A stretch of DNA of 64,000 bases from positions 1 to 64,000 of the forward strand of contig CATKXX010000015.1 of NCBI GenBank assembly GCA_949840935.1. Reading direction: 5' to 3'. Under the pieces are notes generated by a model. It did not search any database and had not been told where the DNA came from. It was given only the letters and a program-made list of their open reading frames with translations. Below are positions 39,822 through 57,215 of this stretch, one piece after another (within the stretch, counting starts at the first letter, position 1; each line of letters opens with the position of its first letter). This stretch comes from an uncultured Acetatifactor sp. Its GTDB lineage: Bacteria; Bacillota; Clostridia; Lachnospirales; Lachnospiraceae. Position numbers and translations under genes: made by a program.

Positions 39822-41729
39822 GTGGCAAAGAGAGCATCGGGCAGGGCAGGTACGGGAAGAAGATCGGCGCGCGGCGCGAACAGGGGCACATCGGCCAGGG
39901 TATCGGGGAACGCATCAAACAGAAGCACTTCAGGGAATGCATCGGCCAGGGCGGGCAGAGGCGCGTCAGGGAACGCATCGGCCAGAGCGGGCAGGGGCGC
40001 ATCAGGGCGGCCGTCGGGGAATGCATCGGCCAGGCCGTCAGGAAGCATTTCGGACATGCCGGGCAGGGGCGCGTCGGGCAGAGCGTCAGGAAGCATTTCG
40101 GACATGCCGGGCAGGGGCGCGTCGGACAGGGCGTCAGGAAGCATTTCGGACATGTCGGGCAGGGGCGCGTCGGACAGGGTGTTGGAGAGAGCGTCGGACG
40201 GGCGGCCGGGCCGGGCATCCGGAAACGCATCGGACAGAGCGGGCAGAGGTTCATCGGAAAGGGCATCGGGGAACGCCAGGCAGGGAAGGAATACGACTGA
40301 CAGGCCGGACAGGAAGGGAGCTGACAGATCCCCGAAAGAGCCGGAAAAGATTAAAAAGTACCGCAGGCCCTTAAACCTGAACATCGGCATGGTTATTTTT
40401 GCCGTGATTTTTGTCTATGTGCTGGTCTGTGTGGTCATGTATTTTCAGACAAGCCATATTGTGCGCTATGAGGTTCAGGAGGGATCGCTGGCTACAAACA
40501 ATATCTATCGGGGCGTCGTTATCCGGGAGGAAAGCGTTGTGTGCACTACCACTGCAGGATATGTCAATTATTATGCCAGAGAGGGCGAACGCGTGGCGAA
40601 GAACGATCTGGTATATGTGGTGGACGAGACGGGACGTCTCAACGAAGAGCTCGAAGGGATGAACATGGGGGAAAATTCCCTGAGTGAGAGGGAGCTGGCT
40701 GAATTTAGAAATGAGATAGTAAATTTCGTTCATGGCTTTGATACCGTTCACTTTGACAATACATATGATTTCAAGTATTCTTTAAAGAATACGGTACTCA
40801 AGCTGGCAAATGTAAATATGCTGCAGAGCGTCAATGACCTGAACGGTGCAACGGGTGCTAATGTGGTCAATTATTCCAACGCTCCCTGCTCGGGAATTGT
40901 GGCATACTGGGTCGATGGGCTCGAGGGGCTTTCGCCTCAGGATGTGACTGCCGGGCTCCTGGAGGGGGAAAATTACGAGAAGACACAGTTTATCGGTAAT
41001 TCGCTGATGGCGGCTGGGGATCCAGCTTATAAGCTTTCTACCAGTGAAATCTGGTCTCTTGTGATTCCCGTGGATGCGGAAAGAGGCGTGCAGCTGCAGG
41101 AGGAGGATTATGTAAAGGTGCGTTTTCTGAAGAACCAGTACGAGTCCTGGGGAAAGGTGAACCTGCTTACCAACGGTGACGGCAATACCTACCTGCAGCT
41201 TACCTTTAATAATTCCATGGTGAGCTTTATTTCAGACAGGTTTCTGGATGTGGAGCTGATCGTGGAGGATGAGACCGGCTTGAAGATACCGGTATCCTCC
41301 ATTGTACAGAAGGAATTCTTCCTGATCCCGGAGGAATATGTGATTCTCGGAGGAAGCAATGGAGGCGAGAGCATCATGCGTCAGTGTTTCCTGGAGGACG
41401 GGACCATATCCAGCGAGATCATGGAGATTGAGGTATACAATTTTGACGAGGAAAACCGGGAATACTATGTGGACAGTTCCATACTGGATGTGGGCGATAC
41501 GCTGTATAAGCTGGACAGCCAGGAGACCTTTACCGTGAGCAAGCGGGCCACGCTCATCGGCGTATACAACATGAACAAGGGGTACGCTGATTTCAAGCAG
41601 ATCAGTATTTTATACCAGAATGACGAATATGCCATCGTAATGCCCAATACGAAATATGGCCTGAGCGTATACGATTATATTGTGCTGGATGCAGATTCGG
41701 TTAATGATGATCAATTTATCAATCAGTAA
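39822..41729 (+). CDS. HlyD-like membrane-fusion protein with repetitive basic N-terminal tail
   Basis: This 635-residue protein has three parts. Residues 1-187 are a disordered cytoplasmic tail of Ser, Gly, Ala and Arg with 12- and 16-residue tandem repeats. One membrane helix follows (about 188-208, IGMVIFAVIFVYVLVCVVMYF). The outer domain begins as a barrel-sandwich hybrid (VQEGSLATNNIYRGVVIREESVVCTTTAGYVNYYAREGERV), like HlyD-type adaptors, and ends in beta-rich parts. The start is GTG 39822, with GGAGG 8 nt upstream; the track TTG at 39807 overlaps that site. It precedes yggS and sepF by 13 nt, so a role at the division site is plausible but inferred. No ABC or RND partner gene is nearby. 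Confidence 0.8.
   Translation: MAKRASGRAGTGRRSARGANRGTSARVSGNASNRSTSGNASARAGRGASGNASARAGRGASGRPSGNASARPSGSISDMPGRGASGRASGSISDMPGRGASDRASGSISDMSGRGASDRVLERASDGRPGRASGNASDRAGRGSSERASGNARQGRNTTDRPDRKGADRSPKEPEKIKKYRRPLNLNIGMVIFAVIFVYVLVCVVMYFQTSHIVRYEVQEGSLATNNIYRGVVIREESVVCTTTAGYVNYYAREGERVAKNDLVYVVDETGRLNEELEGMNMGENSLSERELAEFRNEIVNFVHGFDTVHFDNTYDFKYSLKNTVLKLANVNMLQSVNDLNGATGANVVNYSNAPCSGIVAYWVDGLEGLSPQDVTAGLLEGENYEKTQFIGNSLMAAGDPAYKLSTSEIWSLVIPVDAERGVQLQEEDYVKVRFLKNQYESWGKVNLLTNGDGNTYLQLTFNNSMVSFISDRFLDVELIVEDETGLKIPVSSIVQKEFFLIPEEYVILGGSNGGESIMRQCFLEDGTISSEIMEIEVYNFDEENREYYVDSSILDVGDTLYKLDSQETFTVSKRATLIGVYNMNKGYADFKQISILYQNDEYAIVMPNTKYGLSVYDYIVLDADSVNDDQFINQ
39930..40181 (+). repeat. Coding tandem repeats (36-bp and 48-bp units)
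   Basis: Two near-identical 36-bp units (39930-39965, 39966-40001; SGNASARAGRGA) and a diverged third (40002-40037) are followed by three 48-bp units (40038-40085, 40086-40133, 40134-40181; SGSISDMPGRGASGRA and variants). All unit lengths are multiples of three, so the frame is kept. The block is GC-rich relative to its surroundings and is expected to vary in copy number between strains. Confidence 0.85.
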
Positions 41730-45660: not shown

Positions 45661-45695
45661 ATAATCAGAAAAAACATGGAAAAGGGGTGTGTTAT

Positions 45696-46322
45696 ATGAA
45701 TACAGTTATAACGATTGGCAGACAATTTGGCTCCGCAGGGCGTGAGATCGGGGAAAAGCTTGCGGAATATTTCGGGATTAAATGCTATGATAAAGAGCTG
45801 TTGACCAGGGCTGCCCAGGAGAGCGGCTTTTGTGAGGAAATGATCCAGAACCATGATGAGCGTCCTACTAACTCCTTCCTGTATAATCTGGTCATGGACA
45901 CGTATTCCTTCGGGTACAATGCGTCCTCCTTCGTGGATATGCCCATAAGCCATAAGGTATTCCTGGCACAGTTTGACACCATCAAGAAGATTGCGGACGA
46001 GGGGCCCTGCGTAATCGTGGGCCGTTGTGCAGATTATGCGCTGACGGATTACAAGAATGTGATCAATCTGTTTATCTATGGCAATGAGGAATGCAAGGTG
46101 AAGCGCATTATGAAGAAGTATGAGCTCAGCGAGGCCAAGGCAAGGGATATGATCATCAAGAAGGATAAGCAGCGCCAGAGTTATTACAATTACTATTCCT
46201 CCAAGAAGTGGGGCCGCGCTGACAGCTATGACCTGTGTATCAACAGCAGTGTCCTGGGGGTTGAGGGTACGGTGAAGCTGATCACACAGTATGTGGAGGA
46301 TTTCGAGAAGGCAAACGCTTAA
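45696..46322 (+). CDS. Cytidylate kinase-like family protein (paralogue 1)
   Basis: This 208-residue P-loop protein has NTVITIGRQFGSAGREIGEKLAEYF, where the Walker A is the unusual GRQFGSAGREIG form, and GPCVIVGRCADYAL. It belongs to the cytidylate kinase-like family of Clostridia rather than to true Cmk, and its substrate is not established. AAAGGGG precedes the ATG at 45696. A homologue lies at 56.6 kb with the same CVI(V/I)GRCADY and YDLC(I/L)NSS motifs. It is a single-gene transcript with its own promoter. Confidence 0.88.
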   Translation: MNTVITIGRQFGSAGREIGEKLAEYFGIKCYDKELLTRAAQESGFCEEMIQNHDERPTNSFLYNLVMDTYSFGYNASSFVDMPISHKVFLAQFDTIKKIADEGPCVIVGRCADYALTDYKNVINLFIYGNEECKVKRIMKKYELSEAKARDMIIKKDKQRQSYYNYYSSKKWGRADSYDLCINSSVLGVEGTVKLITQYVEDFEKANA

Positions 46323-47489: not shown

Positions 47490-47544
47490 CCAAGTGGTTT
47501 ATTCCCGCGGGCAATGAGGAAAAGATGACAGATCAGGAGGCAGC

Positions 47545-49209: not shown

Positions 49210-49812
49210 ATGAAAAGGATCGGTATTATGGGAGGCACCTTTAATCCCGTCCACATGGGACATTTACTGCTGGCTGAATGGGCCAGAGTTGAAGCAGGGC
49301 TGGATGAGGTGTGGCTGATTCCCAGCGGGATTTCCTACAAAAAGGCCGGACAGGAGATTGCTCCTGCCCGGCACAGGCTGCGTATGGCGGAGCTTGCTGT
49401 GCAGGGCAACAAGTATTTTAAATGCCTTGACCTGGAGATAAAGCGGGGCGGCTATACCTATAGCTATGAGACGATGGAGGAGCTGGCGGCAGCTTATCCG
49501 GAAGACAAATTTTTCTTTATCCTGGGTGCGGACTGTCTGTTTACCCTGGAGACCTGGAAGTATCCCGGACGGCTCCTTGGCTGCTGCAAGCTGGCTGTGG
49601 CTGTCCGGGACGATACGCCTATGGAGGCGCTGAAGGAGAAAAAGGCGCAGCTGGAACAGCGCTTTGGCGGGGAGATTCTGCTGCTTCCGTTTGTCAGGCT
49701 GTCTGTTTCCGCTACGCAGGTCAGGGAGCGGATCAGGCAGGGAAAGAGTGTGCGATATATGATTCCGGACAGTGTCCTGGCCTATATTGAAGAAAAGGGG
49801 CTGTACCGATAA
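49210..49812 (+). CDS. nadD: Nicotinate-nucleotide adenylyltransferase
   Basis: This 200-residue enzyme makes deamido-NAD from nicotinate mononucleotide and ATP. Motifs are KRIGIMGGTFNPVHMGHLLLAEWA (GxFxPxHxGH), FFILGADCLFTLETWKYP and LSVSATQVRERIRQG (the ISSTxIR equivalent). The track start at 49168 is too early; GAGG before ATG 49210 fits the family. The nadD-yqeK-rsfS order is conserved in Firmicutes. Confidence 0.95.
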   Translation: MKRIGIMGGTFNPVHMGHLLLAEWARVEAGLDEVWLIPSGISYKKAGQEIAPARHRLRMAELAVQGNKYFKCLDLEIKRGGYTYSYETMEELAAAYPEDKFFFILGADCLFTLETWKYPGRLLGCCKLAVAVRDDTPMEALKEKKAQLEQRFGGEILLLPFVRLSVSATQVRERIRQGKSVRYMIPDSVLAYIEEKGLYR

Positions 49813-49858: not shown

Positions 49859-50899
49859 ATGGCAAAAGAGGATTCTTTGAGAAAGCTTCGCAGGGAAATG
49901 GAAAAGGTACAGGATTCCAGGCGCTTTGAGCATACGCTGGGGGTGGAATTCACGGCTGCTTCCCTGGCCATGCGCTATGGCGCATCCATTAAAAGTGCCC
50001 GGACTGCAGGGCTTCTGCACGACTGTGCCAAATGTCTTACAGACGAAGAAAGGATATCCATCTGCCGGAAAAACGGCATTCCCATCTCAGAAATGGAGTG
50101 GAAAAACCCTTTCCTCCTCCATGCAAAGGCGGGAGCCTTTCTGGCGAAGAAACAATACGGGATTGAGGATGAGGATATCCTGAATGCCATCTGCAGTCAT
50201 ACCACCGGCAGGCCGGGAATGAGCCTGCTGGAAATGATTGTATTTGTTGCGGATTACATCGAACCGGGAAGGAATAAGGCTTCCAACCTGGAAGAAATAC
50301 GCAGGCTGGCATTTACGGAATTGGATCAGGCGCTTCTGAAGATTCTGGGTGATACGCTGGAATATCTGGAAAGCGGGAGCGGGGATGTGGATCCTATGAC
50401 AAGAAAAACCTGGGAATATTATATGGAAGTGGGTTCCCTGCGGCATTCACCAGATGCTCGTGCAAGCGCAGCACCCGGCTCATTGCCCGCGGGAATCAAA
50501 TGCCGCAGGTGCGGCGGAATGAGAGGTAATATGGAACAGAATTCAATGGAAATGGCGAAGCTCGCCGTAAAGGCGCTGGAGGACAAGAAGGCGGAGGATA
50601 TCCGCATCATTGATATCAGCCAGGTGACAGTGATCGCTGATTATTTCCTGATCGCCGGGGGAAATAACCGGAATCAGATTCAGGCACTGTGTGATAATGT
50701 GGAGGAAACGCTGGGCAGGGCGGGCTTTTTCTGCAGACAGAAGGAAGGATACGATACGGCAAACTGGATCCTGATGGATTTCGGGGATGTCATTGTCCAT
50801 ATTTTTGACAAGGAGAACAGGCTGTTGTATGATCTGGAACGCATCTGGAGGGATGGCAGACAGATGAATATGGAGGAATTCCGGAGAGAGCAGGCTTAA
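49859..50899 (+). CDS. YqeK HD phosphohydrolase fused in frame to ribosome silencing factor RsfS
   Basis: One 346-codon frame holds two proteins that are normally separate. Residues 1-190 are YqeK, which hydrolyses Ap4A symmetrically; the HD metal ligands are His25, His54-Asp55, His88, His114 and Asp132. Residues 195-224 are a linker of poor conservation (SPDARASAAPGSLPAGIKCRRCGG). Residues 225-346 are RsfS, which blocks 50S-30S joining (MAKLAVKALEDKKAEDIRIIDIS...DYFLIAGGNNRNQIQA...WILMDFGDVIVHIF). A possible internal start at 50531 (ATG after AGAGGTAAT) would make free RsfS as well. GAGGGG supports the start at 49859. The linker looks like a former intergenic spacer. Confidence 0.88.
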   Translation: MAKEDSLRKLRREMEKVQDSRRFEHTLGVEFTAASLAMRYGASIKSARTAGLLHDCAKCLTDEERISICRKNGIPISEMEWKNPFLLHAKAGAFLAKKQYGIEDEDILNAICSHTTGRPGMSLLEMIVFVADYIEPGRNKASNLEEIRRLAFTELDQALLKILGDTLEYLESGSGDVDPMTRKTWEYYMEVGSLRHSPDARASAAPGSLPAGIKCRRCGGMRGNMEQNSMEMAKLAVKALEDKKAEDIRIIDISQVTVIADYFLIAGGNNRNQIQALCDNVEETLGRAGFFCRQKEGYDTANWILMDFGDVIVHIFDKENRLLYDLERIWRDGRQMNMEEFRREQA

Positions 50900-50925: not shown

Positions 50926-50959
50926 AAAAAAGGAAGCCATGAAACGCGGCTTCCTTTTT
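50926..50959. terminator. Bidirectional terminator between rsfS and the DUF378 gene
   Basis: AAAAAGGAAGCC and GGCTTCCTTTTT pair over 12 bp with a 9-nt loop. A-tracts and T-tracts on both sides allow it to work for the convergent genes. Confidence 0.85.
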
Positions 50960-56588: not shown

Positions 56589-57215
56589 ATGGAAAAGGTT
56601 GTCATTACCATTGCAAGACAGTATGGAAGCGGCGGACGAACGATCGGCCAGATGCTGTCGGAAAGGCTAAATATCCATTATTATGATAAAGAGCTGATGA
56701 AGCTGGCGAGTGAAGACAGCGGGATCAACGAGGCATTGTTTGCCAATGCTGACGAAAAGGTGAAAAGTACCCGGCTTTTCCGCATTGCAAAAAGCGTGTA
56801 CGGCGGTGAGCTGATTCCTCCTGAGAGTGATAATTTTACCTCCACAGATAATCTCTTTAATTATCAGGCTAAAATTATCCGTAAACTTGCCGAGGAAGAG
56901 ACCTGTGTCATTATCGGCCGCTGTGCAGATTATGTGCTGAAGGATTACGACAATGTCCTCAGTGTCTTTATTCATGCCCCAGAGGATTTCTGTCTGGAGC
57001 AGGCTGCAAAGAAGCACAGTATGAGCCGGAAGGAGCTGGAGAAGTTTATCCAGAAGACAGATAAGCACAGGTCAGATTACTATACCTATCATACCGGCAG
57101 AAGCTGGTTCGACGCCAGGAATTATGACTTGTGCCTGAACAGCTCAAAACTGGGCTTTGACAGGTGTGTGGACGAGATTATTGCGTACATGAAAGTGCGG
57201 TTCCAACAGGATTGA
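56589..57215 (+). CDS. Cytidylate kinase-like family protein (paralogue 2)
   Basis: This 208-residue P-loop protein has KVVITIARQYGSGGRTIGQMLSERLNIHYYDKEL at the N-terminus, CVIIGRCADYVLKDYDNVLSVFIHAPEDF in the middle and YDLCLNSSKLGFD near the end. It is the same length and domain layout as the gene at 45.7 kb but clearly diverged. True cytidylate kinases share the fold, but the substrate here is not known. It ends at a bidirectional terminator shared with lexA. Confidence 0.88.
   Translation: MEKVVITIARQYGSGGRTIGQMLSERLNIHYYDKELMKLASEDSGINEALFANADEKVKSTRLFRIAKSVYGGELIPPESDNFTSTDNLFNYQAKIIRKLAEEETCVIIGRCADYVLKDYDNVLSVFIHAPEDFCLEQAAKKHSMSRKELEKFIQKTDKHRSDYYTYHTGRSWFDARNYDLCLNSSKLGFDRCVDEIIAYMKVRFQQD

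Follow-up and report, generated by a model that had tools for sequence, protein, structure and literature searches.

The genes yqeK and rsfS are conserved neighbours (PMC7549365), and the locus described here raises the question of how and why, in one draft genome of an uncultured gut Acetatifactor sp., they came to lie in a single reading frame. We examined the locus within a window of 64,000 nt, which is the whole stretch of DNA analysed, and compared it with its own genome and with genomes of the same genus, family and class. The shared frame held up: a 346-aa product was predicted with one terminal stop, and both domains scored above curated cut-offs, with TIGR00488 (YqeK) matching residues 18–180 at 149.9 bits against a cut-off of 70.15 and TIGR00090 (RsfS) matching residues 233–330 at 108.4 bits against 56.9, in agreement with the Pfam HD and RsfS calls. 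All 18 invariant columns were intact in an alignment of 26 YqeK sequences, including H25, H54, D55, H88, H114 and D132 (alignment numbering), as was every invariant column in an alignment of 26 RsfS sequences. The predicted product comprises two intact domains joined by a probably flexible linker of about 30 residues (approximately residues 191–224). It matched a single place in its own genome, and named relatives of the locus included Acetatifactor species, Lachnospiraceae bacterium GAM79 and many uncultured Lachnospiraceae. Immediately upstream, nadD forms a gene of its own, with nadD-yqeK-rsfS synteny evident on both flanks, and the NadD-YqeK fusion model NF005519 scored the fused protein at 126 bits, below its cut-off of 315. 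Features of the locus are collected in Table 1.

Table 1. Features of the fused yqeK-rsfS locus (positions are those of the window)
Feature	Position	Strand	Basis or detail
nadD (nicotinate-nucleotide adenylyltransferase)	49210..49812	+	Pfam CTP_transf_like 4.2e-22; ATG opening MKRIGIMGGTFNP
Fused yqeK-rsfS ORF	49859..50899	+	346 aa plus TAA; translation with one terminal stop
YqeK portion, predicted HD-domain symmetrical Ap4A hydrolase	49859..50431	+	~residues 1–191; TIGR00488, alignment
Element A, belonging to a dispersed, imperfectly palindromic repeat; encodes linker residues	~50434..50500	+	DNA matches, pattern, alignment, folding
Predicted tryptic peptide ASAAPGSLPAGIK			encoded by element A
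Perfect 11-bp inverted repeat, CCTGCGGCATT / AATGCCGCAGG	arms 50437–50447 and 50499–50509	.	one arm in element A, the other in the element B hairpin
Element B, hairpin GCCGC-AGGT-GCGGC then GGAATGAGAGG	50502..50526	+	core present in exact form in 20 of 28 genomes of the genus
Ancestral TGA stop of yqeK, out of frame here (+1)	50520..50522	+	in-frame yqeK stop in L007, L195, L196 and L197
Shine-Dalgarno AGAGG of rsfS	50522..50526	+	sequence; kept in sister species with separate genes
rsfS from the ancestral, now internal ATG	50531..50899	+	122 aa plus stop, predicted N-terminus MEQNSMEMAK, about 14 kDa; Pfam RsfS 6.9e-33
Terminator-like hairpin GGAAGCC...GGCTTCC then T run, 3' of rsfS	50932..50959	+	read from sequence

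The linker had been described in the original prediction as resembling spacer sequence, and this proved literally so: it is translated intergenic repeat DNA made up of two parts, which we designated elements A and B. Comparison of the linker DNA with its own genome returned many matches, the best at 84 % over 73 nt, and a consensus query of element A identified 38 matching places in the genome (89 % for the copy between yqeK and rsfS). Element A is approximately 66 nt long, and the other well-matched copies examined were mostly intergenic. Aligned copies displayed two conserved halves, GCGGCATTCGCCA and TTGGCTCATTGCCCGCGGGAATCAA, flanking a variable loop that can hold further hairpins. A 20-nt pattern drawn from the right half matched 27 times in this genome and 45, 22, 39 and 35 times in four other genomes of the genus, with few or no matches in the remaining genus genomes and in other families; reversed patterns, which served as controls, gave 0 matches in every genome. 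When folding was compared with that of shuffled sequences, other copies of element A reached z-scores of about −3.7 to −4.2, and the yqeK-rsfS copy reached −1.67. The linker as a whole was rejected as strongly folded DNA, since the 121-nt stretch was no more stable than its shuffles (z −0.34), whereas single elements are. Being dispersed, mutually similar, short, palindromic and without coding capacity, element A is a candidate miniature inverted-repeat element of the MITE kind. Its ends form a TTGA/TCAA pair in some copies, the comparison with transposases covering the Y1 type alone, and no target-site duplication was identified at element A. A known RNA family was ruled out as its identity, as no family in Rfam matched element A or element B.

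Several further repeats were observed alongside these. A right-half fragment of element A is present at 47498–47518 (− strand) in the interval separating rpmA from obgE, where it closely follows a terminator-like hairpin, and the element A loops of three loci (L165, L168 and L183) enclose a second hairpin (AGCCAAT...ATTGGCTT), which looks as though one palindrome had inserted into another. Elsewhere in the window, positions 45991–46090, inside a 211-aa ORF at 45687–46322, and positions 56887–56986, near 56.9 kb, are 74 % identical and suggest a pair of paralogous genes lying within 11 kb of each other. Imperfect repeats at 39876–40276, spaced by 36–48 nt and about 65–93 % identical, probably encode a repetitive protein segment.

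Element B lies shortly before rsfS. Its exact core, CGGC[AG]GAATGAGAGG, was found in 133 copies across 20 of the 28 genus genomes and in none (0 copies) of 18 genomes from other families. An ATG follows this core at 2–7 nt in 127 of the 133 copies, including 9/9 in this genome, where chance would place one after roughly 1 in 10 cores by a rough estimate of six positions at 1/64 each. At twenty element B loci, plus several others, this ATG opens a frame of at least 190 aa, rsfS itself excepted, and at the same sampled loci the CGGC of the element usually has a GCCG arm upstream with which it can pair. The placement of the ATG, the long downstream frames and the pairing arm together point to element B as a putative start module, with a proposed layout of a GCCG...CGGC hairpin, [AG]GAATGAGAGG, usually 4–5 nt, and ATG. 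The in-frame ATG at 50531, reached through AGAGG-N4-ATG, would be among its starts. No account of element B, with its hairpin and Shine-Dalgarno sequence, emerged from a limited literature search.

The likely state of the locus before it acquired element A is preserved in sister species. Four sister genomes (L007/G001, L195/G160, L196/G111 and L197/G108) are without element A and have kept element B, the hairpin of which is a variant form in L197. In all four, yqeK stops at the TGA inside GGAATGAGAGG and rsfS begins, in another frame, at the same ATG as here. Alignment of relatives, proposed in the original prediction as a means of finding the ancestral yqeK stop, therefore located it inside element B, and the suggested second start of RsfS at 50531 turned out to be the ancestral rsfS start. 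The distance from the conserved TATTA to GCCGC is 80 nt here versus 10 nt in L120, L121 and L122, a net length difference of +70 nt, or 1 modulo 3. Because this gain shifts the frame by one, the TGA no longer falls in frame; the yqeK frame is open up to rsfS, and stop codons interrupt the other two frames at 50520 and 50527. Among composition-shuffled 97-mers 34 % stay open, so chance alone could leave the linker without a stop; beyond chance are its repeat content and the displacement of the ancestral stop. As about a third of shuffled sequences stay open, a fusion would come as no surprise after an insertion of this kind wherever the frame fits. In another genome (L194/G145) a fragment of element A lies between yqeK and rsfS, downstream of a yqeK stop that is intact. 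The locus with the highest identity to this one (L186/L058) differs in its spacer, which has neither element A nor the exact element B core. This counts against a simple insertion history: either element B was gained or lost repeatedly, or events at the locus were more complex. A separate repeat family was observed in the yqeK-rsfS spacer of L024 (G013), where imperfect units with CCGCC...GGCGGCATGAAGGA hairpins are repeated several times in tandem.

Among the loci and matches compared, the fusion was seen at this locus alone. The two genes were fused in one of 157 loci carrying both, namely the present locus, in a sample that covered the genus, its family and many further families of the class, with some species represented twice. 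No second uninterrupted fusion was found among the 20 of 138 genus genomes that matched at E ≤1e-90, and across 291 genomes of the class every other match spanning both domains, among the matches listed, contained stops. A fusion common to relatives (G018, G042, G056 and others) was rejected: the open-frame value was misleading, and stop codons separate the two genes in their DNA. In the Clostridia survey 25 of 146 loci, from several families, have NadD and YqeK in a single frame (e.g. L139–L147 and L200–L213), which suggests that this pair has been fused repeatedly; a triple NadD-YqeK-RsfS fusion was sought and not found, the long frames being NadD-YqeK only. We found no literature on a YqeK-RsfS fusion; the one paper found to name both proteins, PMC7549365, describes their synteny and not a fusion.

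These observations are best explained, with a probability that we put at roughly 0.8, by a recent, lineage-specific insertion of element A that displaced the yqeK TGA and left the rsfS start in place, the fusion being a by-product with no sign of selected coupling. Element A would have inserted into a short yqeK-rsfS spacer, just upstream of the element B that serves rsfS. With the net gain of 70 nt, ribosomes translating yqeK would miss the formerly in-frame TGA inside element B and continue into the rsfS frame, yielding a YqeK-linker-RsfS protein as predicted from the frame. Since the start module of rsfS is unchanged, translation of free RsfS most probably still begins at 50531, its ancestral start, and both products would then be made. 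The fusion itself is real in the sequence, recent, lineage-specific and probably incidental, with an effect that may well be neutral. Extra N-terminal sequence on RsfS may plausibly be tolerated, because the Staphylococcus aureus RsfS used for the 50S complex bore an N-terminal His tag (PMC7125091) and in the human relative MALSU1 about 96 residues precede the matched domain. A more tentative extension, which we regard as possible but rather doubtful, is that element B constitutes an undescribed, genus-specific start module independent of upstream translation, such that element A fuses the genes, element B keeps the second protein available on its own, and fusion and free RsfS are both made; repeats of this sort would in that case offer a low-cost route to new gene fusions.

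The same observations bear on three other accounts of the locus. Were the frame a product of sequencing or assembly error, the true yqeK would stop at the TGA in element B, and indeed a small length change would restore that stop at 50520; the fusion is also seen in one draft genome only, which is 64 % complete, and repeats can confuse assembly. However, no homopolymer longer than 3 nt occurs at 50419–50540, the longest exact match reported to another element copy is 21 nt, which is short for a repeat-induced misjoin, and the locus sits between syntenic nadD-yqeK-rsfS flanks with intact neighbouring genes. We therefore consider an assembly error unlikely, although with a single draft genome of this completeness it keeps a small probability. 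The alternative that ATG 50531 is unused, being covered by ribosomes translating yqeK so that the fusion is the sole product, draws on the overlap of the sister yqeK stop with the Shine-Dalgarno sequence: rsfS may need coupled termination and re-initiation, which would be lost here. Most element B copies examined, however, precede starts without an overlapping upstream stop, so coupling is not needed, and we regard this as the least probable of the three accounts.

The reading put forward in the original prediction, in which the fusion couples Ap4A breakdown to ribosome silencing, fared less well than its observations on the frame, the linker and the start. A selected bifunctional protein would be consistent with the retention of all invariant residues in both domains, with the conserved adjacency of the genes, and with the NadD-YqeK fusions, which indicate that the cluster tolerates fusion. 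Against this, NadD-YqeK recurs and YqeK-RsfS does not, being present at just one of the loci surveyed, the linker consists of unconserved repeat DNA, the stop was displaced by a dispersed repeat, and an independent rsfS start has been retained. We found no indication that the fusion regulates ribosome silencing through Ap4A, and judge such coupling to be very improbable. The insertion of element A, with the fusion as its by-product, remains our preferred explanation. It cautions against assuming a selected functional link wherever two domains share a frame. The locus illustrates how a very small dispersed repeat can unite two conserved genes, by pushing a stop codon out of frame, whilst the downstream start survives, with the likely earlier state still visible in sister species. 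The genus-wide hairpin plus Shine-Dalgarno module may represent a new kind of translation-start leader.

The components of the fused protein are readily placed among known families. Its YqeK portion resembles other YqeK Ap4A hydrolases (COG1713, TIGR00488; solved relatives 3CCG, 2O08 and 8WMY) in its full HD domain with all invariant residues and is a predicted hydrolase, but differs in bearing a C-terminal repeat-derived linker and RsfS. The RsfS portion is likewise a complete RsfS/YbeB/Iojap domain (TIGR00090; solved relatives 2O5A and 6SJ5), including the invariant Glu, but here would also form the C-terminal end of a protein fused to YqeK. Glu70 of S. aureus RsfS is needed for uL14 binding (PMC7125091), and E72 of the internal RsfS product is expected to correspond to it. 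Like the NadD-YqeK fusions (NF005519/PRK07152), which are recurrent in Clostridia, the present case is a natural fusion inside the nadD-yqeK-rsfS cluster, although it joins the other gene pair. Element A, as a dispersed GC-rich imperfect palindrome outside genes, is comparable to the REP/RAYT families but longer than their repeats; a RAYT transposase was rejected as its driver and element A was not assigned to these families, since no RAYT-type Y1 transposase (PF01797) was found in the 64 %-complete draft genome. A further parallel is offered by the Rickettsia palindromic elements and other MITEs, which are known to insert in frame into genes (PMC10969869). Element A is similarly a small dispersed palindrome that comes to lie within a coding frame and changes a protein through in-frame fusion, a likeness by description, yet it falls outside the Rickettsia elements proper, which measure approximately 150 bp and are frequently in frame within genes. 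Moreover, element A displaced a stop between two genes instead of lengthening one. The YqeK-RsfS protein is a new case of an already known phenomenon, in-frame fusion by small palindromes.
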